A stretch of DNA of 64,000 bases from Fundicoccus culcitae (GTDB taxonomy: Bacteria; Bacillota; Bacilli; Lactobacillales; Aerococcaceae), in contig NZ_CP102453.1 in NCBI RefSeq assembly GCF_024661895.1, forward strand, positions 3,038,001 to 3,102,000, in the 5' to 3' direction. This document shows, piece by piece, positions 3,003-51,595 of this stretch. Below the pieces are notes generated by a model. The model made no database searches. It was not told the origin of the DNA and was given only the letters and a program-made list of their open reading frames with translations. Numbering within the stretch: position 1 is the first letter of the stretch; every line of letters begins with the position of its first letter. A program made the translations under genes and the position numbers.

Positions 3003-3053
3003 TTGAAAAAGCTAGAAAGATTTGATATTGTAATAAAGTTAAGATAACAACAA

Positions 3054-3068
3054 TTGCAACCGCTAGCA
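3054..3068. promoter_or_regulatory. cre box (CcpA site) between malQ and malR
   Basis: TTGCAACCGCTAGCA matches every fixed position of the catabolite-responsive element consensus WTGNAANCGNWNNCW. It lies upstream of the malQ promoter and about 145 bp before malR. It could bind CcpA or another LacI-family protein such as MalR. Confidence 0.6.
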
Positions 3069-3212
3069 AAATCGCGTATAATCTTACATACGATTGAGCC
3101 ACTTGTCAATGGTTATGCGATATTTGTTTTAAAATTTATGTAAATAAAGTATAATTAACAAATTAAATTAGGTTGAAAATGTTTAAATTTTTTATAGACT
3201 GGAATGAAGCAA

Positions 3213-4211
3213 ATGGCTGTTACAATTAAGGATGTCGCAAGAAAAGCAGGGGTAGCCCCTTCAACGGTTACGCGGGTTATTCATGATAGCCCGATTATTT
3301 CACAAAAAACGAAAGAAAAAGTTCGGGAAGTCATGAAAGAAATGAATTATTACCCGAATCTTAATGCGCGTAGTCTAGCGAGCAAAAAGACATCGGTTAT
3401 TGGATTGGTTTTCCCAGATGCAACGGATGCTTTTTATCAAAATCCATTTTTTCCAACGGTGATGCGTGGATTAAATGAAGCAGGAGCCAAATCAAAGTAT
3501 TCATTACTATTGACAACCGGAAATGATTTAGAAAGTCGTTTCAGTAGTGTTCAACGAATGGTTCATGGTCGTCAAGTGGATGGTTTGATCTTTTTGTACG
3601 CACGCCAAAATGATCCCATTTTAGAATTTGTCCATCAGCAACATTTTCCAATGGTGGTTATTGGACAACCATCGATTGAAAATATTCCATTTGTCAACAA
3701 TCGCAATCAGCAAATGGCTAAAGATGCGACCAATTATTTATTGGATAAAGGGGCGATTAAAATAGGCTTTATTGGTGGTGATCCCGAACAACAATTTATT
3801 AATGATCGTTTAAAGGGATTCAAAGAAGCCTTAGAAGACAAGCACATTACCTACGATGACAGCTGGGTATTTAATGATTTAAGTTTCTTACCAGAAGTGG
3901 GTTATGACTTAGCTCAATATATAGCGCGTGAGCAAAGCTTTGATGCTTTTGTCGTCGCTGACCAATATGTGGCTACTGGCTTTAAAGAAGGCTGGAAATC
4001 TGTTTCAGATTCAGTTGTACCCGTCATAACTTTTCATGCATTCCAATCCAATGAGAGTCCTTTCTTAAGAATGGACCCTTATGTAAATATCAATGCCCAT
4101 GAGTTAGGTAAAGGTGCATTAGACATGTTGCTTGAAGTCATTGAAGCCGAGGATAAGTCTGAAGAACATGTTTTTCAAAAGTATGTGGACCATGAGATAG
4201 TTGAATTATAA
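3213..4211 (+). CDS. malR: LacI-family maltose/maltodextrin repressor MalR
   Basis: A 332-residue LacI/GalR repressor. The N-terminal helix-turn-helix reads VTIKDVARKAGVAPSTVTRV, followed by the hinge NARSLASKKTSVIGLVFP and a periplasmic-binding-like sensor domain. The motif order and the NYYPNLNARSLAS segment closely resemble streptococcal MalR. An in-frame ATG at 3204 is possible, but the ATG at 3213 gives the usual family start and better spacing from TGGAA. It is divergent from malQ-malP, and two LacI-type operators lie between them. It probably represses those genes until maltose or maltodextrin is present. Confidence 0.9.
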   Translation: MAVTIKDVARKAGVAPSTVTRVIHDSPIISQKTKEKVREVMKEMNYYPNLNARSLASKKTSVIGLVFPDATDAFYQNPFFPTVMRGLNEAGAKSKYSLLLTTGNDLESRFSSVQRMVHGRQVDGLIFLYARQNDPILEFVHQQHFPMVVIGQPSIENIPFVNNRNQQMAKDATNYLLDKGAIKIGFIGGDPEQQFINDRLKGFKEALEDKHITYDDSWVFNDLSFLPEVGYDLAQYIAREQSFDAFVVADQYVATGFKEGWKSVSDSVVPVITFHAFQSNESPFLRMDPYVNINAHELGKGALDMLLEVIEAEDKSEEHVFQKYVDHEIVEL

Positions 4212-4239
4212 ACATAAGGCTATTGGTCCAAAATAATTA

Positions 4240-4286
4240 AAAACCGTAAGAATCTTATTAGTTCCAAAGATTCTTACGGTTTTTTG
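4240..4286. terminator. Bidirectional terminator between malR and popT
   Basis: AAACCGTAAGAATCTT (4241-4256) pairs with AGATTCTTACGGTTT around a short loop. T-runs follow the stem on both strands, so it can stop transcription from malR and from the converging DUF368 gene. Confidence 0.88.
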
Positions 4287-4288
4287 AA

Positions 4289-5131
4289 TTATTTGTATTG
4301 TTCTTCTAAACGTGCCATCCACCAACCCAGTGCAGTACCCAAAACAAGCATGACAACACACCATAAGTATTGGACCCAACCAAAACCAGTGTAATCAAGC
4401 GGAATAATCATAATCGTTGAAGCAATGACAATTCCGAAAATGAAGTGGAAAAAGGATGCATAATAGTGTTCAAATATATATTCAACTAATTTAGAAAAAA
4501 GAATAATCGTTAATAAACCACCAATGGCGATTGGAATAATGACAGAAAAGTCTAGGCGACTAAAACCATCGGCCATCGGTTGATATAAACCAAAAATAAC
4601 AATGAAATTTGATGGGCTTAAGCCAGGCACTAAAACACCTAAAGCAATTAAAAAACCACACAATATCCAAGACCAAAAGTTGATAGGCAGTTGGCCACCG
4701 ATTGATTGGTTAGAAAAGTAAATTAATGCAATTCCCAATACTAATGAAACGCCAGTGATAACATAATCTTTTTGGCTACGACCTTCTTTACCGGCTTCTT
4801 TCCAGAGGGAAGGTATCATCCCGACGATACAACCCACAAAAAACCACAATACAATTGTTTCGTAATTTTCTAATACGTAGCTTATTCCAAAGGATAAAAT
4901 GACAATACTGACGATAGCGCCTAATCCAACAGGAATAAAAAAGATAACATTTTCTTTAAAGTTTTTCGTTATATTAGCTAAAAAGCGGATGATACGTTCA
5001 TATAAACCGAAGATAGCAGCTAATGCTCCCCCACTCACTCCCGGAATGATAAAACCTGAACCGATGAACATTCCTTTAATAAAGCGGAGTAACCAACTTT
5101 GATTTGAGTTGTTGCTTGTTTCATTTGCCAT
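4289..5131 (-). CDS. popT: DUF368 membrane protein, PopT-type polyprenyl-phosphate transporter
   Basis: An integral membrane protein of 280 residues. It shows the internal duplication typical of DUF368: GFIIPGVSGGALAAIFGLYE near the N-terminus and GVLVPGLSPSNFIVIFGLYQ in the second half, with about eight hydrophobic segments. DUF368 proteins (PopT) have been reported to return undecaprenyl phosphate across the membrane for reuse in wall synthesis; the role here is inferred from the family. The longest frame starts at 5152, but GGAGG lies just upstream of the ATG at 5131, making that the likely start. UppP (51697-52536) acts on the same lipid carrier. Confidence 0.85.
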   Translation of the reverse strand: MANETSNNSNQSWLLRFIKGMFIGSGFIIPGVSGGALAAIFGLYERIIRFLANITKNFKENVIFFIPVGLGAIVSIVILSFGISYVLENYETIVLWFFVGCIVGMIPSLWKEAGKEGRSQKDYVITGVSLVLGIALIYFSNQSIGGQLPINFWSWILCGFLIALGVLVPGLSPSNFIVIFGLYQPMADGFSRLDFSVIIPIAIGGLLTIILFSKLVEYIFEHYYASFFHFIFGIVIASTIMIIPLDYTGFGWVQYLWCVVMLVLGTALGWWMARLEEQYK

Positions 5132-5248
5132 AGTAACCTCCATATATTTCATAAAATAAAATAATTATTGCTAGTTAGTAGTTTAGCGATATTTATTCGA
5201 TATATCAATTGTCTTTTACTTTGAAACAAAAAAAATCAGTCGTTAGAC

Positions 5249-5278
5249 TTAGAAAAATACCTAAGCATGGGCTATAAT
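5249..5278 (+). promoter_or_regulatory. Putative promoter of the glutaredoxin-like gene
   Basis: TTAGAA (5249-5254) and TATAAT (5273-5278) are separated by 18 bp, about 30 bp before the start codon. The -35 is weak and the -10 is perfect. Confidence 0.5.
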
Positions 5279-5307
5279 AGTTTATAAACCATATAGGAGG
5301 TAGAAAG

Positions 5308-5568
5308 ATGTCAGGAAAAATACTGTATTTTAGTAGTGTATGTCCCGATACACCGGCTTTTGTAGCCGAATTAGAACGATTAAATATAGCGTATACGGCT
5401 GTCAATATAACAGAGTCTATGCCCAATTTGAAGCAATTTTTAGCTTTAAGAGATACACGACCAGAATTTGATGTTAAAAAAGAACACAATCAGGTGGGTG
5501 TACCTGTCTTAAAATTGGAAAATGATGCTCTGATTTTTGATGTGTCTGAACTAGAAAGCCAGGCGTAG
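5308..5568 (+). CDS. Glutaredoxin-related small thioredoxin-fold protein
   Basis: A small protein of 86 residues with a thioredoxin-type start, KILYFSSVCPDTPAFVAELE. A single Cys sits in a CPDT motif where a dithiol CxxC would be in classical glutaredoxins. The C-terminal half has GVPVLKLEND, containing the cis-proline typical of the fold. It resembles the glutaredoxin-related proteins (COG4545) of streptococci. A monothiol redox or thiol-sensing role is inferred; no substrate is evident. AGGAGG is well placed before the ATG, and an unknown exported protein starts 4 bp after its stop. Confidence 0.8.
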   Translation: MSGKILYFSSVCPDTPAFVAELERLNIAYTAVNITESMPNLKQFLALRDTRPEFDVKKEHNQVGVPVLKLENDALIFDVSELESQA

Positions 5569-5572
5569 CACA

Positions 5573-6991
5573 TTGGCTAGCAAAAAGTTTCGTTATTTAG
5601 TGATAATCGTTATGTTATGTCGATTTAATTTTAGTGGATATAATGGGGTTTCTGTTCAAGCCCAGTCAGAACTTTCAAAGCTAGAGCCTGTTTTAAGTGA
5701 ATTAGCTCTTAATAATAAGGAAGCAAAAGACGAGATTAATGATTGGATTTCACTGGTTCATGAGGCTCAGTTACAAGATGATCATTCGATAGATAGTTGG
5801 GCTAAGCGTTTCGGTGATGAGACATGGACTGAAACAGAATTAAGCACGGAAATCACTTCCTACAGCCGTTTATATGAAACGGAATCACAGTTAACAAGCC
5901 TTACGAATTATCCAGCTGAAATCGAATTATTGTTTTATAACAATCAGCTTTTTTATATGGGTTTAAATTATTTAACGGCTTATATTCCGCTTGAGTATAC
6001 GAGTGATGCTGAGTTAGTTCAATCGATTAATCAATTGGATGCATTAGCAGATGCTCCCGTTCATGTAAAAGCAATAAGTTATGTTAGAGATCCGATTTTT
6101 GGTGACAGCTTGTATTGGTCAATTCCTGTCACCACTGAAAATCAATCAAATGTAACTTTTGACATTTTGCAACAACAAAATCTAGAACTTAATGTAATTT
6201 CGAATTTAGAAGGCGAGTTAGGTAATTTTACACAAAACTTGCTCGTCGAATTAACTCATCAAGGCTTATTATCAATCGATAGTCAATTTCAAATAGAGGG
6301 ATCTCAAAGTGAATCGCCTGTTGAAAGTGAAACAGATAATGAGATAACTTTGTCTGAGCCAACTAATTGGGAGACCTTTTTGTATCGTAATTTAAAAGAG
6401 CTAACTGTCCCTCAAGAACAATTTGTCGAAGGAGAACAACTAAAAGAGCCTTTTAATGAAATGCAACAACTTATATTTGATGAGAGTCAGGCTGAGATAA
6501 GCCAAGAAGAGACAAACGATGATTTATCTCTACCTAATGATATTTTAGCTGAGTTGAATGCAACAACTTTAATTTCGCGACAAGTTATTATTGATTTATT
6601 CGGTCAACCTTCAGTTACCACCAATTATGAAGCCAGTGAGTTTCTAACTTATTATGGGGTTGACGGGGAGGAACTAATTGTCCTTGAAATGCATTTATAT
6701 CAGGATCAGTTAAATGGTTTTATTTATTTAAACAAAGATGCAACGTTATATCAGCCTTTTGCTTTAACCGAGAAGGAAATAGACAATTTAGCTGAATTGG
6801 ATAGTTTGACCCTTGAAGAATTGACAAAAGCCTTAGGTGAACCACACAGCATGGCTTACCAAATGCCGAATGATTATTTATATAGTTGGATTTCAATGAC
6901 AGAAGCAGGTAACAATGTTATCAAGGCGCATCTTGTCAATGATGAAATAATTGAATTAAATTATCAAACAATAACCATAGAAAATGAATAG
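5573..6991 (+). CDS. Exported protein of unknown function
   Basis: I do not recognise this 472-residue protein. It begins at TTG 5573, four bases after the preceding stop, with only a weak ribosome site, so translation may be coupled. Residues 3-30 look like a signal peptide (Lys-Lys-Phe-Arg, a hydrophobic core, then VQAQS). A long acidic middle follows. The C-terminus holds two short units, LISRQVIIDLFGQPSVTTNY and LTLEELTKALGEPHSMAYQM, each a helix plus GxP followed by predicted strands. This resembles tandem SmpA/BLIP-like domains, by eye only. The next gene, cdd, overlaps its end. Confidence 0.7.
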   Translation: MASKKFRYLVIIVMLCRFNFSGYNGVSVQAQSELSKLEPVLSELALNNKEAKDEINDWISLVHEAQLQDDHSIDSWAKRFGDETWTETELSTEITSYSRLYETESQLTSLTNYPAEIELLFYNNQLFYMGLNYLTAYIPLEYTSDAELVQSINQLDALADAPVHVKAISYVRDPIFGDSLYWSIPVTTENQSNVTFDILQQQNLELNVISNLEGELGNFTQNLLVELTHQGLLSIDSQFQIEGSQSESPVESETDNEITLSEPTNWETFLYRNLKELTVPQEQFVEGEQLKEPFNEMQQLIFDESQAEISQEETNDDLSLPNDILAELNATTLISRQVIIDLFGQPSVTTNYEASEFLTYYGVDGEELIVLEMHLYQDQLNGFIYLNKDATLYQPFALTEKEIDNLAELDSLTLEELTKALGEPHSMAYQMPNDYLYSWISMTEAGNNVIKAHLVNDEIIELNYQTITIENE

Positions 6992-29947: not shown

Positions 29948-31820
29948 GTGCGCCCGGCATGGGTGACAACTTGGTGGTGAAAGTCCACTACAGGCTTGGC
30001 AGTAGGAACTGTTAGCTAAAGGCAAGGGTGTCCATCGTGAGGTGGAATCTGAAGGAAGCCGGAGGCAAACACTCGCACTGACGAACAGAAACTTCATATT
30101 AAGGCTGAACAGGGACGGACGAGCTTGCCTTACAAAGTAAAGTCCAATACTGCACGAATCCCATACAGTAGATGAAGCAGTGACATGAGTGGAAGGTTGT
30201 CATTCTTACCCGGGGAGGTCTCATCAACGATAGTTAATCGTAGTAACAACGAATGATGAGAAGTCAGCAGACGTCATAGTACTAGCCTATAGCTAGGAAG
30301 GACAGAACAATAACAATTTTGAAAATCAAGGAGGTGGATACGTCACCGATAACGCAGACAACATCGTGATTAAGTTCGAAGAGATGGCTGCCTACAGAAG
30401 GATATGCTGGAAGCAAAAAGATATGTAGGAGTGCGGAGGTGTCGTAGCACAGATATGAATAAACAAAATGATATCTTACTGATTGACCAAGTAGTCAGTC
30501 AAACAAACATGGAACAAGCTATCGCTAAAGTTCGCAAAAATAAGGGAGCACCCGGTGTAGACGGGATGACGGTTAATGAACTAGACGAACATATGGCGAC
30601 TTATGGGTCAGCCATTGTTCGAAAGCTCAAGGCTGGAACCTATCAACCACAACCTGTGAAACGAGTTGAAATACCCAAAGCTAACGGTGGAGTCCGCCTT
30701 TTGGGTATTCCAACGGTAAGGGATAGAGTCGTACAACAAGCGATACTTCAAGTGATTGACCCGATAATTGACCCGCATTTCTCTGAATTTAGTTACGGTT
30801 TTCGAAAAGGTCGCAACGCTCATCAAGCGGTGGCACGAGTCATCAGTTACTACGAAGAAGGTTATCGTGTAGTAGTAGACTGTGATTTGAAGAATTATTT
30901 CGATACCATCAACCATCAAATTCTTAGAAATAATCTTGAATACTATATTCAGGATAAAGTTGTTTTAAGAATTATCTGGAACTTTCTTAAATCAGGCATC
31001 CTGGACCAAGGCTTTTATGTTGAAACGGATATGGGAACACCACAAGGAGGCCCCTTATCTCCGTTACTAGCGAATGTCTATTTACACCATTTAGACAGGG
31101 AGCTTGAGCGTAGAGGTCATAAGTTCGCTCGATACGCGGATGATTTTGTCATCTATGTAAAGAGTAGACGGGCAGGCGAACGTGTGATGGAAGGTATTAC
31201 AGACTTTATTGAAGGGAAATTACGTCTAACGGTGAATAAGGAAAAAAGCCGAGTGACGACACCCACCCAATCTAAATTCCTGGGGTTTCATATTCATAAT
31301 AGCACGGGAAAGTAGGATGCCGACCTAGTCAGTCGGCTAAACAAAAGTTTCGCACCAAGCTCAAGAAGTTAACTCGTCGTAATCGACCTGGGTCATTTGA
31401 AGATATAGTAGTAGAAATCAATCGAGTGACTGTAGGGTGGATAAATTACTACAAAATTGGTTTTATGAAATCTTTCATGATAGAAACTCAGAGCTGGTTG
31501 AATCATCGATTGCGACAGCTCATCTGGAAAAGATGGAAGAAAGTATCCACTCGGTATACACAACTTAGGCGACTAGGCATAGACCATGATGATTCGCTCA
31601 AGATGGCAGGGAGTCGTAAGGCTTATTGGAGACTTTCACGGAGTGAAATTTTACACCGAGCCATCACAAACAAAAGGCTCGCTATCTGGGGATTGAAGGA
31701 TCTAACCTACTTATATGAGCGATAAAAGATATTTAAGTTATTGAACCGCCGTGTACGGAACCGTACGCACGGTGGTGTGAGAGGTCGACTAGTCAATTAA
31801 TGACTAGTCTCCTACTCGAT
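29948..31820 (+). mobile_element. Group II intron with (frameshifted) maturase
   Basis: The element opens with GTGCGCCCGGCATGGGTG, a conserved group II intron 5' end. About 450 nt of structured RNA follow, then the maturase reading frame (30404-31725), then domain V (about 31743-31782, CCGCCGTGTACGG-AA-CCGTACGCACGGTGG with its two-base bulge) and a domain VI hairpin (GACTAGTC/GACTAGTC) ending near CCTACTCGAT. The 3' end is accurate to a few bases. It sits directly after a terminator hairpin, a target habit known for class C introns, but I did not assign a class. Splicing does not require the maturase to be encoded in cis if a relative supplies it. Confidence 0.9.
30404..31725 (+). pseudogene. 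ltrA: Group II intron reverse transcriptase/maturase, frameshifted
   Basis: The first frame (30404-31315) carries the reverse transcriptase with KGAPGVDGM, GTPQGGPLSPLLAN and the catalytic ARYADDFVIY, and stops after FLGFHIHNSTGK. The continuation VGCRPSQSAKQKFRTKLKKL and the maturase domain GWINYYKIG...LTYLYER (to 31725) lie in another frame. Adding one G to the GGG at 31306-31308 restores a single protein of about 440 residues. A one-base deletion, or a sequencing error in the G-run, explains it. No HNH endonuclease domain is present. The initiator may be 30404 or the ATG at 30455. Confidence 0.85.
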
Positions 31821-40608: not shown

Positions 40609-40737
40609 CGTTTTTTAATATATTGATTGTAATTTAGATAATAATATTAATATTTCAATATAAAACTACAACAAAATAAAATTGCCTCACTTTATTGAAT
40701 TTTTTTGACGTTTTAACCTGAAATATACTAAAAAATT

Positions 40738-40746
40738 TGATATAAT
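40738..40746 (+). promoter_or_regulatory. Putative ntp operon promoter (extended -10)
   Basis: TGATATAAT gives TGn plus a perfect TATAAT (40741-40746), 30 bp before the ntpF start. A TTGACG at 40705 is too far for standard spacing. Confidence 0.5.
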
Positions 40747-40776: not shown

Positions 40777-41100
40777 GTGGCCAAAACAACAATGCAGGTT
40801 GTTGAATCAATTGAAAATCAAGCTCTTGAAATTGAGGCAGATTATGACAGACAGATTGAAGCCGTTGAACAATCTTATAAGCAACAATTAGAGGATCAAA
40901 AGAAAGCTTTAGAATCTTCGCGAGATTAAAAATTAGCTGAATTAGAGGACTCCTTAAAGGAGCGACTTGACCATGCCGAACAAGAGTTAGAAAGAGTATT
41001 AAACCGTGATCAAGAACGCATTAATCATGCACTTGAATCATCAAAAACGGACTACGTTCCACAAATTATTAAAGAGGTGGTGAAGCGATATGGCAATTAG
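40777..41100 (+). pseudogene. ntpF: V-type ATPase peripheral stalk subunit NtpF, interrupted by an in-frame TAA
   Basis: GAGGAGGTGA marks a GTG start at 40777. The frame reads MAKTTMQVVESIENQALEIE and on through a charged coiled coil to ALESSRD, then meets TAA at 40927-40929. The same frame continues without further stops, KLAELEDSLKERLDHAEQEL and on to the stop at 41098-41100, which overlaps the ntpI start. The total is 106 residues, right for the subunit G/H stalk protein. No ATG, GTG or TTG in the second half suits reinitiation, so the stalk helix is cut at residue 50. A single base change or sequencing error would explain it. Confidence 0.85.
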
Positions 41101-41849
41101 TTCTATGAACAAAGTAACACTTCTAACCCCTGAAAATTTAGTTGATGACCTATTGACAGAACTTCAAGGAATGCAACAAATTGAAATTATAAATTTAAAT
41201 GATCAAGATCCTTGGGATAAGTTAGATGACACAACTGAAGACATGTTAGATGAGTACGAAGAAAAATCTCAATCAATGACAGAACAAAGAGTGATGGATG
41301 ACTTAGAAAATCGTCTTCATCAAATTGAGCGGGCTATTGAATTAGCCAACCGATTTGCAGAAAAACCTTCTTTGATGAAAACGTTAAAAAACGGGAAACC
41401 TGAAGTGAGTTTTAAGCAAATTCAAAACCATGGTGAACAATTTAATGAAGATGAAATAGTAAACCATACCATTCAATTAGTTGAACGCCTAGACGAATTA
41501 GAAATTTTGATTGACGAGACGCGTGATCAAGTCAATGATTTAGAAAAATGGAAAAAATTAGAAATCACACCTAATAAGCTAAATAGTTTTAGTTATGTTA
41601 ATGGTGTTGTTGGTAGGGTGCCAAGCACCAATGAAGATAGTTTTATCAACTATTTAAAAGAAAACGATAATTATTTTTATGAAGTTGTCTTTATTGACGA
41701 TAATGACTATGGTGTGGTCGTTTTTAGTTACAATAAGGAAAACAGACAAATTTTAAATGATTTGAAACCTTATCAATTCCTCCCCTTTAAATATACCTCC
41801 GATATGTTACCAAAAGACCAGCTTGATGAATGGAACCAAACGATAGAAG
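41090..41849 (+). pseudogene. ntpI: V-type ATPase subunit I (NtpI), 5' part, interrupted by IS66-family element
   Basis: This part encodes the N-terminal cytoplasmic domain of subunit a/I (MAISSMNKVTLLTPENLVDD ... DEWNQTIE), mostly coiled coil that contacts the peripheral stalks. After codon 253 the element begins; the frame runs on into it and stops at 41896 after 15 foreign residues. Joining 41849 to 44112 restores an uninterrupted frame of 666 codons (DEWNQTIE-DAKTERKEIV), the usual size of NtpI, so the gene was intact before insertion. Confidence 0.92.
41842..41849. repeat. Target-site duplication, left copy (GATAGAAG)
   Basis: The 8-bp GATAGAAG is repeated at 44104-44111, directly outside the element. 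Eight base pairs is typical for the IS66 family. Confidence 0.95.
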
Positions 41850-41934
41850 GTAAGCGCCCAATAGTGAGGTATCTTCTTAAATTTACTCCGATTTAGTATG
41901 ATTAATTCATCAAACAAAAGGAGTGACAATAATA

Positions 41935-42279
41935 ATGATTGACTTTACAATTCCTGAAACACTTTATCTCATGCCTCGTTATTCGCCAGCTAACCAAGAT
42001 CGCCAACGTCTATGCACTTTGATTCAATCTAGTTCTGCTTTTAAACCTGATCATACCGCAGCCTATCTTTTTTGTAATTCTCGAAGAAACATTCTGCGAA
42101 TCATCTATTGGGACGGTTTTAGATTTACTGACTTAGTTTATCGATTGGAACGAGGGGGATTCGTTTGGCCATACACCGAACCGAAATTTATGGAAATTTC
42201 TCTTCAACAATTAGAACGTCTTTTACGAGGTGATACCTTGAACCCGCCTTTAGAAACCTCTTATATTTTCAACAAATAA
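41935..42279 (+). CDS. tnpB: IS66 TnpB accessory protein
   Basis: A 114-residue IS66 Orf2-like protein: MPRYSPANQDRQRLCTLIQS, then RRNILRIIYWDGFRFTDLVY and LERGGFVWP, all typical of TnpB. It is needed for transposition in IS66 elements, but its biochemical role is unclear. AAAGGAG lies 11 bases before ATG 41935; an in-frame GTG at 41923 falls inside that ribosome site. Confidence 0.92.
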   Translation: MIDFTIPETLYLMPRYSPANQDRQRLCTLIQSSSAFKPDHTAAYLFCNSRRNILRIIYWDGFRFTDLVYRLERGGFVWPYTEPKFMEISLQQLERLLRGDTLNPPLETSYIFNK

Positions 42280-42369
42280 TCGCTATATTTTTAGTGAATA
42301 ATCGCTAAATTTACTAGTAAATATATTCGGTATATGGTATAATGAGCCTAACGAAAAGAGGTGATAGAC

Positions 42370-44013
42370 ATGACCGAAAACGAACTTATTGGACTAGAAA
42401 TTTCAGAAATTTTAGAAAAATTTAACCAATTAGAATCCGAACTTGAAGCTGCGAATATAAAGATTGAACTCATGCGTCAAGACCTCGCAACCTATCAAAT
42501 AATGACTTATAGCCCTCGAAGAGAAACGATGATTTCGGAAGGACAAACGAATCTCTTCACGGATCCTTCCGAAGATATCTCGGAAGTTATCTCTCATGAG
42601 GAATATTCTAAACCAGAGCCCCCAGTTGTAGAAAAATCTGAAAAAAAAACAACAAAAGGCTCCAAGCCGCGCGAAAAATCCGTCGGAAGAAAAGATGAGA
42701 TTCTCAATCAGTATGTTCAAGAAGATGTCTATCATTACTTACCTGATGAAGAACAAGTCTGTCATGATTGTCACCATCCATTAAAATTAATTGGTCCAGC
42801 TCAAGTACAACAAGAACTTGTGTTTGTTCCTGCTCATTTCAAATGTGTTAATCATCATCAAATGAGCTATAAGTGTGACCACTGCTCATCACAAGCGGAT
42901 AAAGATCAATTTGTAAAATCTGAACTCCCTTCACTTCCTTTTGTGAATAGCTTTGGGTCGGCTTCTGTCGTTGCAGAGACGATTTATCAAAAATATGAAT
43001 TAAAAGTACCAGCTTACCGCCAAGAAAACCATTGGAGAAAATTGTTATTACCTTTATCACGAACCACTATTTGTCGTTGGCATATTAAAGCCTGTGAGTA
43101 TTATTTAGGCTTTATTTATCGAGCACTCCATGATGAAATACTCATGCATGATATTGCGCATATGGATGAGACCACCTTCCGTGTCCTAGAAAGTGACAAG
43201 CAACAAACTTTTTATTGGATACTTCAAAGCTCGCAACATCATGACCATAAAGTCGTGTATTTCTCCCACCAAGATGGGCGTGGAAGTGATAAGTTTAAGG
43301 AAGTCATTGGTAGCTTCGAAGGGACGATACACTGTGATATGTATGCGGTCTATCGCAGTGCTGATGAGTCAACCGAGAACCTAGAGTTGGCAGGTTGTTG
43401 GGCACATCTAAGGCGAAAATTCTTTGAAGCGAGTAGAGTTTCCAAAGGATTACCTAAGACAACAGCCGATGAGATTCTCACTATGATAAATACTATCTTT
43501 AGAAAGGAACGTGAATGGAAAGAGTTATCCATTGAGGAACGATTTAAGAAAAGGCAATTCATTCTTAAACGATTAATGGACAATCTCTTCAACTACATTG
43601 ATCAGTGTGCTGCCAACACCATCCTGAAAGACAAACTGAGTAAAGCGTTTAGTTATGCCAAAGAGTATAAAGCGTATTTCTACAACGTTTTAAAGGATGG
43701 GCGCTTAGAGCTTAGTAATAATGCAGCAGAACGCTCCATACGCACTGTAGTGATGGGACGAAATAATTATAAATTTGCGGCTACTTTTAACGGTGCTCAA
43801 GCAGGTGCAGTTATTCTCTCACTGATTGAGACAGCTAAATTACATGGTTTAGACGCAAAACAATACATTCAGTATCTTCTGACACACCTACCGAATGAGA
43901 GTGATTTAGCGACAGCTAAATTAGATCAATATATGCCTTGGTCTAATGAAATCAAAGAAGCCTGTTCTGCACAAACGGTGATTGGTGATGTCGTTGAAGA
44001 AAAAACAGCCTAA
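42370..44013 (+). CDS. tnpC: IS66 transposase TnpC
   Basis: A 547-residue transposase. The N-terminus is a leucine-zipper-like helix (about 5-45), then a linker, a zinc-finger domain (VCHDCHHPLKLIG ... YKCDHC) and the DDE domain. Catalytic residues are in HMDETTFRVLE, IHCDMYAVYR and SNNAAERSIRTVVMGRNNYK, with the conserved GCWAHLRRKFFEA between. The frame is intact. AGAGGTGA precedes ATG 42370. Confidence 0.95.
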   Translation: MTENELIGLEISEILEKFNQLESELEAANIKIELMRQDLATYQIMTYSPRRETMISEGQTNLFTDPSEDISEVISHEEYSKPEPPVVEKSEKKTTKGSKPREKSVGRKDEILNQYVQEDVYHYLPDEEQVCHDCHHPLKLIGPAQVQQELVFVPAHFKCVNHHQMSYKCDHCSSQADKDQFVKSELPSLPFVNSFGSASVVAETIYQKYELKVPAYRQENHWRKLLLPLSRTTICRWHIKACEYYLGFIYRALHDEILMHDIAHMDETTFRVLESDKQQTFYWILQSSQHHDHKVVYFSHQDGRGSDKFKEVIGSFEGTIHCDMYAVYRSADESTENLELAGCWAHLRRKFFEASRVSKGLPKTTADEILTMINTIFRKEREWKELSIEERFKKRQFILKRLMDNLFNYIDQCAANTILKDKLSKAFSYAKEYKAYFYNVLKDGRLELSNNAAERSIRTVVMGRNNYKFAATFNGAQAGAVILSLIETAKLHGLDAKQYIQYLLTHLPNESDLATAKLDQYMPWSNEIKEACSAQTVIGDVVEEKTA

Positions 44014-44014
44014 T

Positions 44015-44071
44015 ATGTTAAACTAACCTAGAATTTCTTCTGTCTGGGTTAGTTTAGCATGTTTATTTTTT
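44015..44071 (+). terminator. Terminator inside the IS66 element
   Basis: ATGTTAAACTAACC pairs with GGTTAGTTTAGCAT (one mismatch), then GTTTATTTTTTT. It would also reduce read-through into the rest of the ntp operon. Confidence 0.78.
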
Positions 44072-44103
44072 TATGGATAGATACCTCACTATTGGGCGCT
44101 TAC

Positions 44104-45352
44104 GATAGAAGATGCGAAAACTGAACGTAAAGAAATCGTTAGCACCTTAAAAGCTTATCAATCGACCCTTGACGAATTAAAATTACAATATGAATATGTG
44201 AATAATTTATCTACCCGTGAACAAGCGAAATTTGCTTTAAAACGAGCAGATAATTTAGTTACAATTGAAGGTTGGATTGAAGAAGAAAATGGGTCACAAT
44301 TTCTACAAACAATCAAAAATAAGTTTGATGAGTTAATCGTCGCAAAAGTTCATCCATTAAATCAAAATGATTATAAAACGGTACCTACAAAATTGAAAAA
44401 CAAAGCGATTGTTAAACCGTATGAAATGATTACGACGATGTACGGGCTACCTAATTATAAAGAAGTCGATCCAACACCTTTTGTTATGCCCTTTTATTGG
44501 TTATTTTTCGGCATGATGTTAGGCGATTTAGGTTATGGTTTGGTGTTGGTAGTAGCAGCCTTGATACCTTTAAAAACCTTTAAGTTAACGGAAAGTACAA
44601 AAGATACCTTAAAACTTGTTTTTAGTTTAGGTTTATCAGGGGTTGTCTGGGGAGCTATATATGGTTCATTCTTTGGTTTTACGATTGAATGGATGCAACT
44701 CATTGATTTACAATCATCCGTTATGGAAGTCATGGTACTATCATTAGCTATTGGTATGGTACATATGGGCATCGCATTTGGAATAAATACCTACCTACAA
44801 ATAAAAGATAAAAACTATGCGAAAGCCTATGCTGATGGTTTGCATTGGATTATTGTTTTAATCGGAATTGCTGTGGCAGCGCTTGGGTTCCTATTCCCTA
44901 GTTTAAGTGCCTTAACGAATGTTGGTCTAGGTATGATTCTCCTAAGTTTTATTGGCATGATTATCGCAAATATAATCGACGCTAAAGGTATATCAGGACT
45001 TGGAACTAGCTTACTGGGCTTTTTAAATGCTGTTAGTTACTTTGGAGATATTATTAGTTATTCACGTTTGATGGCTTTAGGTTTGTCGGGTATTAGTATT
45101 GGAGCGGCTTTTAATATTATCGTAGGTCAAATTCCCTTTATTGGGCGTGTGACGCTGGGTGTTGTGCTTTTCATTGTTTTACATTTATTTAATATGTTCC
45201 TTTCTTTATTAACGGGTGGTGTTCACAGTTTGCGTTTAATCTTCGTTGAATTCTTTGGTAAGTTTTACACAGGCAATGGACGACCATTCAAACCCTTACA
45301 AATAAATGAAAAATATGTCTCTATTAAGAAAAATCAAGAAGTGAAGGAGTAA
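44104..45352 (+). pseudogene. ntpI: V-type ATPase subunit I (NtpI), 3' part
   Basis: Starting with the right target duplication, this fragment encodes the rest of the stalk domain and the whole membrane domain: PFYWLFFGMMLGDLGYGLVL, several further membrane helices, and ISYSRLMALGLSGISIGAAF, whose Arg is the conserved ion-channel residue. The only early initiator is GTG 44198 without a ribosome site. The protein is therefore probably not made, or is made only as a truncated membrane part that cannot join the stalks. Confidence 0.92.
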
Positions 45353-45357
45353 AATTA

Positions 45358-45813
45358 ATGAACTTTTTTATGGAAAATGGTGGAATGATACTGGCTGGAA
45401 TAGGTGTGTTTTTAGCTGTAGCACTTTGTGGGATAGCTTCTGCTAGAGGATTAGGTGTTGTTGGTCAATCCGCAGCCGCTTTAATCAAAGAAGAACCGGA
45501 AAAATTTGCTCAAGCATTAATCTTGCAACTAATGCCTGCTTCACAAGGCTTATATGGCTTCGTTATTGGCTTTATGATTTTATTGCAGATGGAACCAGGT
45601 ATGAGTCTAGCATCCGGATTTAATTTACTCATTGCGTCACTACCTATTGCTGTTGTTGGCTATTTCTCAGCGGGTGATCAAGCTAAAGTGGCAGTAGCTT
45701 CGATGGGAATTTTAGCTAAACGTCCTGAAGAAAACTCTAAAGGTATTATTCTAGCTTCAATGGTAGAAATGTATGCCATCTTAGCCTTTGTAACATCATT
45801 CTTATTGATTTAA
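45358..45813 (+). CDS. ntpK: V-type ATPase rotor ring subunit K
   Basis: A 151-residue, four-helix c-type subunit forming the rotor ring. Residues matching the Na+ site of Enterococcus hirae NtpK are present: Gln in ASQGLYGFV, Gln in GDQAKVAVA and the key Glu in MVEMYAILAF, with Ser replacing the usual Thr64. Sodium specificity is therefore inferred. GAAGGAG precedes the ATG. Confidence 0.95.
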   Translation: MNFFMENGGMILAGIGVFLAVALCGIASARGLGVVGQSAAALIKEEPEKFAQALILQLMPASQGLYGFVIGFMILLQMEPGMSLASGFNLLIASLPIAVVGYFSAGDQAKVAVASMGILAKRPEENSKGIILASMVEMYAILAFVTSFLLI

Positions 45814-45858: not shown

Positions 45859-46443
45859 ATGTCAGAACTATCTCGCTTAGAAGAGTCTGTCATTCGGCAA
45901 GCGCATAAAAAAGGCCAGTTGAAGTTAGAACAAGCAGAAGCCGAAGCTCAAAAGCAATTTAAAAAAGATCAACGTGAATTCAATGACGAATTTGCCTATG
46001 AAGAAGAACTCGCGCTTGAAGCGCTGAAACATAAATATGAGCATCAAATTCAACAAGTTGAAAATCGTCGTCGTCAATCTTCGTTAATTGGGAAACAAAA
46101 ATTAATTATCGGAATGTTTGACCAAGCCGTTGAAGAAATGAATCAGTGGCCAAAAGAAACACATCTAAAATTTATCAATCAAGTTTTAGAATTGTATCAT
46201 GATAATTATTTACGCATTCAATTTGGTGAGTACACCTTAAAACACTTAGAAGACCAAGATTTAGAAACTTTGAAGAAAGACTTCAATAAAATCAAAATCA
46301 ATAGTCATCCGATAGATAAACAAGGTGGCTTTATTATTTCGATTGGTCGTGTGGATTACAATTACATTTATGCCAAATTAGTCGAAGCAACACGTCATGA
46401 TTTAAGTGCCGAAATCGCTAAACGTGTTTTTAGTGAAACGTAG
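45859..46443 (+). CDS. ntpE: V-type ATPase subunit E (peripheral stalk)
   Basis: A 194-residue protein with a long charged N-terminal helix (LEESVIRQAHKKGQLKLEQA ...) and a C-terminal globular part ending DLSAEIAKRVF, typical of subunit E. It normally pairs with the NtpF helix, which is truncated in this strain. GGAG lies before the ATG. Confidence 0.92.
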   Translation: MSELSRLEESVIRQAHKKGQLKLEQAEAEAQKQFKKDQREFNDEFAYEEELALEALKHKYEHQIQQVENRRRQSSLIGKQKLIIGMFDQAVEEMNQWPKETHLKFINQVLELYHDNYLRIQFGEYTLKHLEDQDLETLKKDFNKIKINSHPIDKQGGFIISIGRVDYNYIYAKLVEATRHDLSAEIAKRVFSET

Positions 46444-46452
46444 GTGATTGTG

Positions 46453-47460
46453 GTGAGTAAAGTTGATTACAGTCAAATAAATACGTTGATTGATGTGCGT
46501 TCAGCTTCATTGTTAACTCAACAAGATTTTGAGCAATTATTAGTCAGTCCTTCAGCTCAAACGAGTTTACGTGTCTTAGAAAATACACGCTATTACTTTA
46601 AAGCAGATGACTTAAATGACTTAGATAAAATTGAAGAGCGTTTAACCGATAATCTCGTTGAAAATTATCGGTTTGCTATTAGTGAAGGACCCAACCGTTC
46701 TATCGTTGAAGTTTTTGGAGCCAAGTATATTTATCATAATTTAAAAGTGATTTTTAAGAATTTAGTCTTGAATCAAGATAATGAAGATTTGTTAATTACG
46801 ATTGGTCGATTCTCAATTGATGAATTGTATCATATTATTCAAACGAGTGAATCAAGTGTTATCCCCAACCAAATTATTGAGCGTGTTAAACAAATTAGGG
46901 CGGATTATGATACGTATCAAGATATTAAAGTGGTCAATTTAGGTTTAGATATGGCCTATTTTGATCATTTAGATGATATTCGAAAAAAGGAAGAAAATCC
47001 AATTGTTGATGCTGTTATAACGGCTTTGATTGATTTTTATAATGTCATTACCGTTTATCGTGGCACACAATTAGGCAAACCACGTAGTTTTATGTTTGAA
47101 ATGTTATCGGATAAAGGCACTGTAGCAATTAGCGATTTGCTTCAAATGATTTCAGATAATCAATTAGCTTCATGGTTTGAATCCATTAATCAATTACCTT
47201 ATGTAAAAACATTTGATGCCTATATTGAAAAAATGAACGAGGGTACGATTCAAGCTTATGATCTAGAGCGAATGGAAACCGAATATATTTATCAATTGCT
47301 TAAAGAAGAGCTGTTGAATCCCAATGATGTGGTACCTTTGTTGTTTTATTTGTACCGTAAAGAAATGGAAATTACAAATCTACGTTTAATATTAAACGGA
47401 AGAGTTAGTGGGCTTCCGATTGAAAAAATTAAAGAAAGGATGCGTCCCGTCTATGAGTGA
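46453..47460 (+). CDS. ntpC: V-type ATPase subunit C (central stalk socket, d-type)
   Basis: A mainly helical protein of about 335 residues (VDYSQINTLIDVRSASLLTQ, LENTRYYFKADD, RKEMEITNLRLILNGRVSGL) that links the rotor ring to the central shaft. Three GTG codons (46444, 46450, 46453) could start it; spacing from AGGTG favours 46453. It overlaps ntpG by 8 bp. Confidence 0.92.
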   Translation: MSKVDYSQINTLIDVRSASLLTQQDFEQLLVSPSAQTSLRVLENTRYYFKADDLNDLDKIEERLTDNLVENYRFAISEGPNRSIVEVFGAKYIYHNLKVIFKNLVLNQDNEDLLITIGRFSIDELYHIIQTSESSVIPNQIIERVKQIRADYDTYQDIKVVNLGLDMAYFDHLDDIRKKEENPIVDAVITALIDFYNVITVYRGTQLGKPRSFMFEMLSDKGTVAISDLLQMISDNQLASWFESINQLPYVKTFDAYIEKMNEGTIQAYDLERMETEYIYQLLKEELLNPNDVVPLLFYLYRKEMEITNLRLILNGRVSGLPIEKIKERMRPVYE

Positions 47461-47773
47461 AAATGATTATCGTATTGCTGTTGTTGGAAATCGTGATGCC
47501 ATCCTTCCCTTTAAAATGTTAGGTTTTGATGCCTTTTCTACTACGAAGGCAAAAGAGGCTGCAGCTATTTTAAATGACTTAGCTGAAAAGAAATATGGTG
47601 TAATTTATATTACAGAAGATATTGCAGAACTTATTCCAGATACTATTCGCTATTTTGATTCTGTCATTACACCTGCAGTCATCCTTATTCCAACCCACAA
47701 AGAGGGTAATGGTTTAGGTATGGCACGTATCAGAGAAAATGTTGAGAAAGCTATTGGAGCAGATATTTTATAA
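47453..47773 (+). CDS. ntpG: V-type ATPase subunit F (NtpG)
   Basis: A small Rossmann-like central-shaft subunit of 106 residues: [48 protein letters not shown]. Enterococcal nomenclature is used. The start at 47453 overlaps the end of ntpC, suggesting coupling. Confidence 0.93.
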
Positions 47774-47802
47774 TGATGAATGAAGATAAAGGGGGGAGAC
47801 AT

Positions 47803-49581
47803 TTGAGCCAAGGGAGAGTTATTAAAGTATCCGGTCCATTAGTTGAAGCAGCTAATATGGAAGCGGCCAATATACGTGATATTGTTAAAGTTGGTAACAT
47901 GCAATTAGTGGGTGAAATTATCCAAATGGAAAATGATGTTGCGGCTATTCAAGTATATGAAGAAACATCAGGACTTGGATTAAATGAACCAGTGGAAACA
48001 ACAGGGCAACCATTGTCGGTTGAACTAGGACCAGGATTAATGTCTCAAATGTTTGATGGTATTCAAAGACCATTAAAGAAAATTGAAGAAGTGACCAAAA
48101 GTGAGTATTTAGCCAGAGGGATTAATGTACCTGTCTTAGATGAGGATGCGTTATGGCAATTAGAATCTAAAGTTTCAATAGGCGATTATGTTGAACCAGG
48201 CGATGTCATAGGTGTTGTCCAAGAAACAGCTATTGTTGAACATCGCATTATGGTACCTAAGGGGGTTTCAGGTACCATCAAAAGGATTGAGAGTGGCGAA
48301 AAGACTGTCAATGATATTGTTTACACGGTTGAACAAAAAGATGGCAGTGTGTTTGAAGGAACAATGAAGCAAAAATGGCCTGTTCGTCAAGGTCGCCCTT
48401 ATAAACGTAAATTACTACCAACGAGCCCATTAGTCACTGGACAAAGAGTGATTGATACCTTTTTTCCTGTAGCTAAAGGGGGAGCAGCCGCCATCCCTGG
48501 TCCATTTGGCGCAGGGAAAACCGTGATTCAACATCAAATTGCAAAATATTCAGATGTTGATATTGTTGTTTATGTGGGTTGTGGTGAACGTGGTAATGAA
48601 ATGACCGAAGTGTTAGAGGAATTTCCTAAATTAATTGATCCAAATACAGGTGAATCCTTGATGGAAAGAACGGTTCTGATTGCAAATACATCCAATATGC
48701 CGGTTGCCGCTCGTGAAGCATCCATTTACACAGGGATCACTATTGCGGAATACTATCGCGATATGGGGTATTCAGTGGCAATTATGGCCGATTCAACCTC
48801 TCGATGGGCAGAAGCGTTACGTGAAATGTCAGGACGACTTGAAGAAATGCCAGGTGACGAAGGTTATCCAGCTTACTTAGGTTCTCGGATTGCAGAATAC
48901 TACGAAAGAGCAGGTTTAGTCGAAGTCATGGGGAATAGTGGTAAACAAGGTTCGGTAACGGCTATCAGTGCCGTATCGCCTCCAGGAGGAGATACCTCTG
49001 AACCTGTTACACAAAATACCTTACGCGTGGTAAAAGTATTTTGGGGATTGGATTCTAGCTTATCTCAGAAACGTCATTTTCCAGCGATTGACTGGTTAGA
49101 ATCGTATTCATTGTATCAGGATGAAATTGGTGAAACAATTGATCAATCGAGAAATATCAATTGGTCAGAAATGGTAAATCGTGGTATGAGTATTCTACAA
49201 CAAGAAAGTGACTTGCAAGAAATTGTTCAATTAGTAGGTGTTGAATCACTATCAGATAAAGATCGCATTACCATGATGACAGCACGCATGCTACGTGAAG
49301 ACTATTTACAACAAAATGCCTATGACGATGTTGATACATACACATCTTTTGATAAGCAAGTCAGTATGTTAGAAAATATCTTACATTTTGATGAACAAGC
49401 CCGTCAAGCACAAGAATATGGTGCGACTTACACTGATATTGAAACAGGGACGAGTCAAGTAAGACATCGTATTGCTCGTAGTAAATACATTGCTGAAGAA
49501 GACCGTGAACAAATTGATCAAATAAAAGAAAGTATTGATATCGATATGCGTGAAATATTACAAAGTGGAGGGGGTAATTAA
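47803..49581 (+). CDS. ntpA: V-type ATPase catalytic subunit A
   Basis: A 592-residue catalytic ATPase subunit. The P-loop is [13 protein letters not shown], followed by [28 protein letters not shown] and [19 protein letters not shown] indicates a TTG start at 47803, giving [16 protein letters not shown] at the N-terminus and the length of the E. hirae protein; the ATG pair at 47773 has no ribosome site. The gene is intact despite lesions upstream. Confidence 0.95.
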
Positions 49582-49582
49582 G

Positions 49583-50965
49583 ATGGCAAGAATTATTGAA
49601 TATCGCACCACCTCACAAGTAGAAGGGCCTTTAATGATTGTTAAAGGTGTTCAAGAGGCGCATTATAATGATTTGGTGGAAGTTGAGTTACAAACCGGTG
49701 AAGTGCGTCAAGGACAAGTTTTAGAACTCAGTGAAGATGCTGCTGTCGTCCAATTGTTTGAAGGTTCAAGTGGCATTAATGTCGCCAATACACGTGTCCG
49801 TTTCCAAGGGAAACCTTTGACTATCGATGTATCGGAAGATATGATTGGGCGCGTATTTGATGGCATGGGTAAAGTGATGGATGAAGGACCTGAGATTATC
49901 TCAGAAAAAGCGCTAGATATTGAAGGCGAAGCGATTAATCCTGTGTCTCGTATTTATCCAGATGAATTTATTCAAACAGGTATATCTACTATTGACCATT
50001 TAAACACACTCGTTCGTGGACAAAAATTACCTATTTTCTCTGGCTCAGGTTTACCCCATAAAGAATTAGCGGCTCAAATTGCCCGTCAAGCGACGGTTCT
50101 AAATTCGGATGAGAATTTTGCGGTTGTGTTTGCTGCGATGGGCGTAACCTTTGAGGAAGCTCAATTCTTTATGGATGATTTACGTGAATCAGGCGCATTG
50201 GAACGATCCGTGATGTTCATTAATTTAGCGGATGACCCTTCCATTGAACGCTTAGCAACACCTAAAATTGCATTAACGACCGCCGAGTATTTAGCCTTTG
50301 AAAAAGATATGCATGTATTAGTTATTATGACTGATATTACGAACTACTGTGAAGCTTTACGTGAAGTTTCAGCAGCCCGTCGTGAAGTTCCAGGCAGAAG
50401 GGGTTATCCAGGTTATTTATATACTAATTTAGCTAGTTTGTATGAACGTGCGGGACGTATTAATGGGAAAAAAGGGTCAGTCACACAATTACCTATCTTA
50501 ACAATGCCAGAAGATGACATTACACATCCAATTCCGGATTTAACGGGCTATATTACAGAAGGGCAAATCATTCTATCTCGTGAATTGTACAATAATGGTT
50601 ATCGTCCTCCCATTGATGTACTACCGTCATTATCACGTTTGAAAGATGATGGGATTGGCGAAGGTAAAACACGTGAAGACCATGCTCCAACAATGAATCA
50701 AGTATTTGCTGCCTATGCAGAAGGAAAACAAGCTAAAGAATTAGCGGCGGTGTTAGGGGAAGCAGCCCTATCGGATACCGACAAATTGTATGTTCAGTTC
50801 GCTGATCGATTCGAAAAAGAATATGTTAATCAAGGCTTCCATACGGAACGCTCTATTCAAGAGACATTGCATTTAGCGTGGGAATTATTAGATATTTTAC
50901 CGCGAACAGAATTAAAACGTATCAAGGAATCGATGATTGATCAATATTTGCCGGATAAGGAGTGA
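49583..50965 (+). CDS. ntpB: V-type ATPase subunit B
   Basis: The non-catalytic nucleotide-site subunit of 460 residues: [20 protein letters not shown], then [20 protein letters not shown] in place of a P-loop, and [28 protein letters not shown] marks ATG 49583, adjacent to the ntpA stop. Confidence 0.96.
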
Positions 50966-50971
50966 TGGCCA

Positions 50972-51595
50972 GTGGCTAAGCTAAATGTGAAACCAACCCG
51001 TGGTGAATTAAGTAAATTAAAAGAGCGTCTTACATTAGCCACGCGCGGACATAAACTGCTTAAAGATAAACGCGATGAACTAGTGCGCCAGTTTATTCTA
51101 TTGATTAGGCAAAATAATGAATTGCGGCAAAAGGTAGAAGATAAGTTACAGCCAGTGATGCAAGAGTTTGTTTTAGCCAAAACACTTGAAGATGATCGTA
51201 TGGTGAATGAGTTATTTTCAACGCCAACCAAAGAAGTCTCATTACGAATACGTGAAGATAACATCATGAGTGTCCGTGTTCCAAAACTGCATGTAAATAT
51301 CACTGATTTAAATACCAAATCAGATAGTGATTATAGTTTTGTTTCTTCTAATAGTGGGATGGATGAAGCCATTATAGCTATCGAAGATTCGTTGCAAGAT
51401 TTGTTAGATTTAGCTGAAATTGAGAAAACGTGTCAGTTAATGGCTAGTGAAATCGAGAAGACCCGTCGTAGAGTAAATGGCTTAGAATACCAAATCATAC
51501 CTGATTTGGAAGAAACCATTTATTTCATTGAGATGAAATTAGAAGAAAATGAACGTGCTGCAACGACACGGATGATGAAGATTAAAGATCGGTGA
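50972..51595 (+). CDS. ntpD: V-type ATPase subunit D (central shaft)
   Basis: A 207-residue coiled-coil shaft subunit: [20 protein letters not shown] at the N-terminus and [19 protein letters not shown] near the C-terminus are signatures. It starts at GTG 50972 behind AAGGAG. It is the last gene; ntpH and ntpJ of enterococci are absent here. Confidence 0.95.

Follow-up and report, generated by a model that had tools for sequence, protein, structure and literature searches.

The V-type ATPase operon of the window and its two lesions

The window, by which we mean the whole stretch of 64,000 nucleotides of Fundicoccus culcitae DNA that was analyzed, carries a V-type ATPase gene cluster, ntpF-I-K-E-C-G-A-B-D, that extends from position 40777 to position 51595 (Table 1). 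We refer to this operon and to its group of paralogues as type 1, and to the group represented by a second operon of the same genome as type 2. The nine-subunit set is incomplete in the type-1 operon: ntpF contains a nonsense codon and ntpI is split by an insertion sequence. The other seven genes (ntpK, ntpE, ntpC, ntpG, ntpA, ntpB, and ntpD) contain no stop codon, as an earlier note on this DNA had stated.

Table 1. Features of the type-1 V-ATPase operon and of the insertion sequence in ntpI (positions are those of the window)
Feature	Position	Strand	Basis or remark
Sigma-70-like promoter candidate upstream of ntpF, CTGAAA-17-TATAAT, extended -10	40718..40746	+	consensus scan, 10/12; 31 such matches found against 22.9 expected, close to chance
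ntpF (peripheral-stalk subunit), pseudogene	40777..41100	+	read-through aligned with NtpF of relatives
In-frame TAA, ntpF codon 51	40927..40929	+	
ntpI 5' part, 251 codons plus duplication; enters the element, stop at 41896	41090..41849	+	43-48% identity to NtpI of six relatives
Target duplication GATAGAAG, left copy	41842..41849	+	
Complete IS66-family element, 2254 bp	41850..44103	+	one of three genomic copies (~99% identical)
Left inverted end, 25 bp, beginning GTAAGCGCC	41850..41874	+	100% match between ends
tnpB, 118 aa, IS66 Orf2	41923..42279	+	PF05717, E 2.2e-16
tnpC transposase, 550 aa	42361..44013	+	PF03050 (E 4.6e-71), PF13817, PF13005
21-bp hairpin, intrinsic terminator-like, oriented towards ntpKECGABD	44012..44063	+	U-rich tail 44064-44074
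Right inverted end, 25 bp	44079..44103	-	
Target duplication GATAGAAG, right copy	44104..44111	+	
ntpI 3' part (stator/channel subunit)	44104..45352	+	PF01496; in frame with 5' part across empty site
ntpK (rotor ring)	45358..45813	+	E 2.1e-43 to E. hirae NtpK (2bl2); alignment
ntpE, intact	45859..46443	+	
ntpC, intact	46444..47460	+	PF01992
ntpG, intact	47453..47773	+	PF01990
ntpA (catalytic), intact	47773..49581	+	69-73% identity to type-1 relatives
ntpB, intact	49583..50965	+	78-83% identity to type-1 relatives
ntpD, intact	50972..51595	+	66-75% identity to type-1 relatives; PF01813

The ntpF reading frame starts with a GTG codon at position 40777, which is preceded by AGGAGGTG, and it is interrupted in frame at codon 51; beyond this stop codon it remains open until a TAG codon at positions 41098-41100, just as the earlier note had described. 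Since the frame is open on either side of the TAA, the lesion is of the substitution type. All 107 residues of the read-through product align with the NtpF proteins of six relatives (29-34% identity; E-values from 2e-9 to 6e-14), and the sequence after the stop is thus a continuation of ntpF; it contains the C terminus, where conservation among the relatives' NtpF proteins is highest. There is no in-frame ATG, GTG or TTG codon between the TAA and the last few codons of ntpF, which rules out re-initiation of translation.

The second lesion was likewise recognized by the earlier note: ntpI is split by a complete IS66-family element, with the 8-bp target duplication GATAGAAG present on both of its sides. 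When the flanks are joined across one copy of this duplication, an uninterrupted NtpI protein of 666 amino acids results (666-669 amino acids in the intact type-1 relatives), so that the expectation of a reading frame restored by precise excision of the element held as well. When a collection of genome contigs was searched with the N-terminal portion of NtpI, no relative turned up.

The inverted ends of the element are perfect, as had been claimed, but they comprise 25 bp instead of 23 bp. A count of the element in the genome, which the earlier note had called for, gave three copies. The other two possess their own 8-bp duplications, CTTTATGT and CGAGTGAA, and open tnpB and tnpC genes; since each of the three copies is bordered by a different duplication and carries open tnpB and tnpC frames, the element has transposed within this lineage. 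The divergence of the copies does not date the ntpI insertion: they differ at 12 or more positions, and these differences may be older than the insertion. A plasmid collection held no near relative of the element and yielded one match of 149 bp at 71.5%. Separately, the genome contains another IS66-type element that shares ~70% identity with the ntpI insertion; its four copies, which have identical match scores, lie in G000:C1 near 1052773, 1418244, 2456217, and 2751286. Elsewhere in the window (30404-31725), two adjoining frames of 303 and 99 amino acids resemble, by eye, a group II intron reverse transcriptase/maturase that has been split in two.

The hairpin at the right end of the element folds as RNA with -26.1 kcal/mol (z -7.1), and no shuffled sequence folded equally well; a simple terminator scan had missed it because its loop comprises 10 bases. 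Because this terminator-like structure points at ntpKECGABD, the insertion is probably polar on these seven downstream genes.

The age of the damage can be bounded from the reading frames. About 4.6% of random substitutions in the 8,481 bases of the operon would create a stop codon, and none is present beyond the one at codon 51; neutral change since inactivation therefore amounts to at most ~0.8% per site (95%), provided that the operon has been unconstrained since then. The lack of any further stop codon marks the decay as recent, in agreement with what the earlier note had proposed.

A second V-type ATPase operon and the paralogue groups of the Aerococcaceae

The chromosome, a single contig of 3,224,940 bp, contains a second complete V-ATPase operon (L057; G000:C1:2674005-2682555) with the gene order F-I-K-E-C-G-A-B-D. 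Its nine genes are open and encode NtpF (120 amino acids), NtpI (653), NtpK (160), NtpE (193), NtpC (334), NtpG (103), NtpA (595), NtpB (460), and NtpD (211). An intact F-type ATPase operon is located ~7 kb downstream of the window (C1:3108969-3115320).

The Na+ ligands of Enterococcus hirae NtpK are L61, T64, Q65, Q110, and E139 (PMC2359735). The type-2 NtpK protein, which matches the E. hirae ring subunit 2bl2 with an E-value of 5.9e-44, keeps all five of them as well as Y68, and Na+ transport by the enzyme with this ring is predicted. The type-1 NtpK protein reads M/S/Q/Q/E at the same five positions, with M for L61 and S for T64; the hydroxyl, both glutamines, and the glutamate are retained. 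Because Leu61 provides just its backbone carbonyl to the ion, and because a serine hydroxyl fills the role of the threonine in Ilyobacter tartaricus (PMC2359735), both V-ATPases are predicted from their ring subunits to be Na+ pumps.

Both operon types also occur together in five other genomes (G003, G022, G033, G017, and G015). In a tree of NtpI proteins, type 1 and type 2 each form a clade with full support. A tree of NtpB separates them likewise, apart from the type-1 protein of G015, whose placement is not resolved; the C-terminal parts of type-1 and type-2 NtpI are 40% identical. A literature search on insertion sequences in ntpI, on V-ATPases of the Aerococcaceae, and on paired V-ATPase operons found nothing useful, and the relatives searched included no second genome of the genus Fundicoccus.

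We surveyed 77 genomes of the family, 51 of which have one ntpI gene that is broken in none of them (0/51). Twenty-four genomes have two V-type ntpI genes; in 16 of these, which belong to a single genus, the second gene is only distantly related (31-35% identity). A broken copy is present in three of the 24, namely in this genome, in Hutsoniella sourekii (G019), and in a draft assembly (G066). The difference between the two groups gives a one-sided p of 0.03 in a Fisher test that takes no account of phylogeny and depends on three cases, of which two are draft assemblies. In this survey, broken ntpI genes are confined to two-copy genomes, which points weakly in the direction that redundancy predicts. 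The two operon types may not be fully interchangeable, and presumably both were kept for some time.

The two other genomes with a broken ntpI have features of their own. The type-1 ntpI gene of H. sourekii ATCC 700629 (L066) carries a frameshift close to a stretch of seven A, the type-2 locus (L072; G019:C4:72000-86000, positions 3016-6478) is reduced to I-K-C, and the genome encodes a single NtpA and a single NtpD; such an arrangement would point to a V-ATPase of hybrid composition or else to an error in the assembly. The ntpI gene of the draft genome G066 (L077; G066:C63, 4724-6690) lies in two frames, and this genome also has a distant V-type ntpI.

The probable inactivation of the type-1 operon and alternative explanations

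We consider it very probable that, of the two paralogous operons for Na+-type V-ATPases, the type-1 operon was inactivated recently and by ordinary means, with the type-2 operon making the damage tolerable. The nonsense codon cuts NtpF short ahead of its conserved C-terminal half, and a complete multi-copy IS66-family element has, by its insertion into ntpI, split the stator/channel subunit; the terminator at its right end probably also halts transcription ahead of ntpKECGABD. The type-1 operon would then yield no working enzyme, a loss that the cell should tolerate because a complete type-2 operon supplies genes for all nine subunits, and its Na+ site is intact. Most likely, a spare operon is undergoing routine decay in a genome whose insertion sequences are active.

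The earlier note had interpreted the damage otherwise, namely as a sign that this strain had tolerated the loss of Na+ pumping as such, or that the loss had been selected. Its observations of two separate lesions, of their recency, and of flanks that remain in frame stand, and the presence of two separate lesions in one operon does favor its reading. Nevertheless, the same chromosome holds a complete second Na+-type V-ATPase operon together with an intact F-ATPase, and a loss of Na+ pumping therefore does not follow from the damage, which redundancy of the operons would explain without selection against the pump. We regard this part of the interpretation as extremely improbable; a broken ntp operon is not equivalent to a lost sodium pump where a second one is present.

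Two other explanations concern the ntpF codon. It might be a sequencing error, with only the IS insertion being real, since it is a single base in one assembly, the only genome of its genus among those searched. We think this unlikely: the chromosome is assembled as one contig of 3.22 Mb, a substitution with an open frame on either side is unlike the indels typical of long-read errors, and ntpI is disrupted regardless. Alternatively, translation could pass through the TAA by suppression or reassignment so that NtpF is made, for which the open and homologous downstream frame could be taken to speak. But TAA is the commonest stop codon of the window, where it terminates 25 of the 46 long frames and so acts as an ordinary stop, the remainder of ntpF offers no in-frame start before its last codons, and ntpI is broken anyway; we have rejected this possibility, to which we give practically no credence.

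The seven open type-1 genes could also still be in use if type-2 NtpF and NtpI completed the type-1 rotor and head in a hybrid enzyme, and the loci of H. sourekii, with a frameshifted type-1 ntpI, an I-K-C type-2 locus, one NtpA, and one NtpD, would fit such mixing. We judge subunit sharing to be quite improbable. Type-1 and type-2 NtpF and NtpI proteins differ widely, as the C-terminal part of NtpI illustrates, the terminator of the element should cut off ntpKECGABD, and recency by itself accounts for the open frames. A broader version, in which paralogous V-ATPases exchange subunits, the interrupted operon feeds a hybrid Na+ pump with type-2 NtpF and NtpI, and H. sourekii stands at a further stage of merging, appears very improbable to us; if it were true, the I-K-C remnant and the lone type-1 head genes of H. 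sourekii would represent a later stage of the same process. Inactivation of a redundant operon, the reading that we prefer, makes the locus a clean case of a paralogous rotary-ATPase operon in early decay, in a family several genera of which carry two V-ATPases.

Comparison with known systems

The element in ntpI shares with the IS66 family a TnpC DDE transposase (PF03050) with a zinc finger (PF13005) and a C-terminal element (PF13817), the accessory protein TnpB (PF05717), and, in all three genomic copies, ends that start with GTAA and an 8-bp target duplication. It differs in that the accessory protein TnpA is absent; the stretch from the left end to tnpB is 73 bp long and has no room for such a frame. 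TnpA marks only the three-gene group of IS66 elements and is not required of every member of the family.

The V-ATPase loci of H. sourekii (L085, L100) resemble those studied here in that both types are present and the type-1 ntpI is broken; there, in contrast, the lesion is a frameshift and it is the second locus that is reduced. The V-type Na+-ATPase of E. hirae is encoded in the order ntpFIKECGABD, and the type-1 operon has the same subunits and the same gene order, with Q65, Q110, E139, and Y68 of the E. hirae ring subunit kept in its NtpK protein. Unlike the operon of E. hirae, it has broken ntpF and ntpI genes and an NtpK protein with M/S in place of L61/T64, and it is accompanied by a second complete operon in the same genome.
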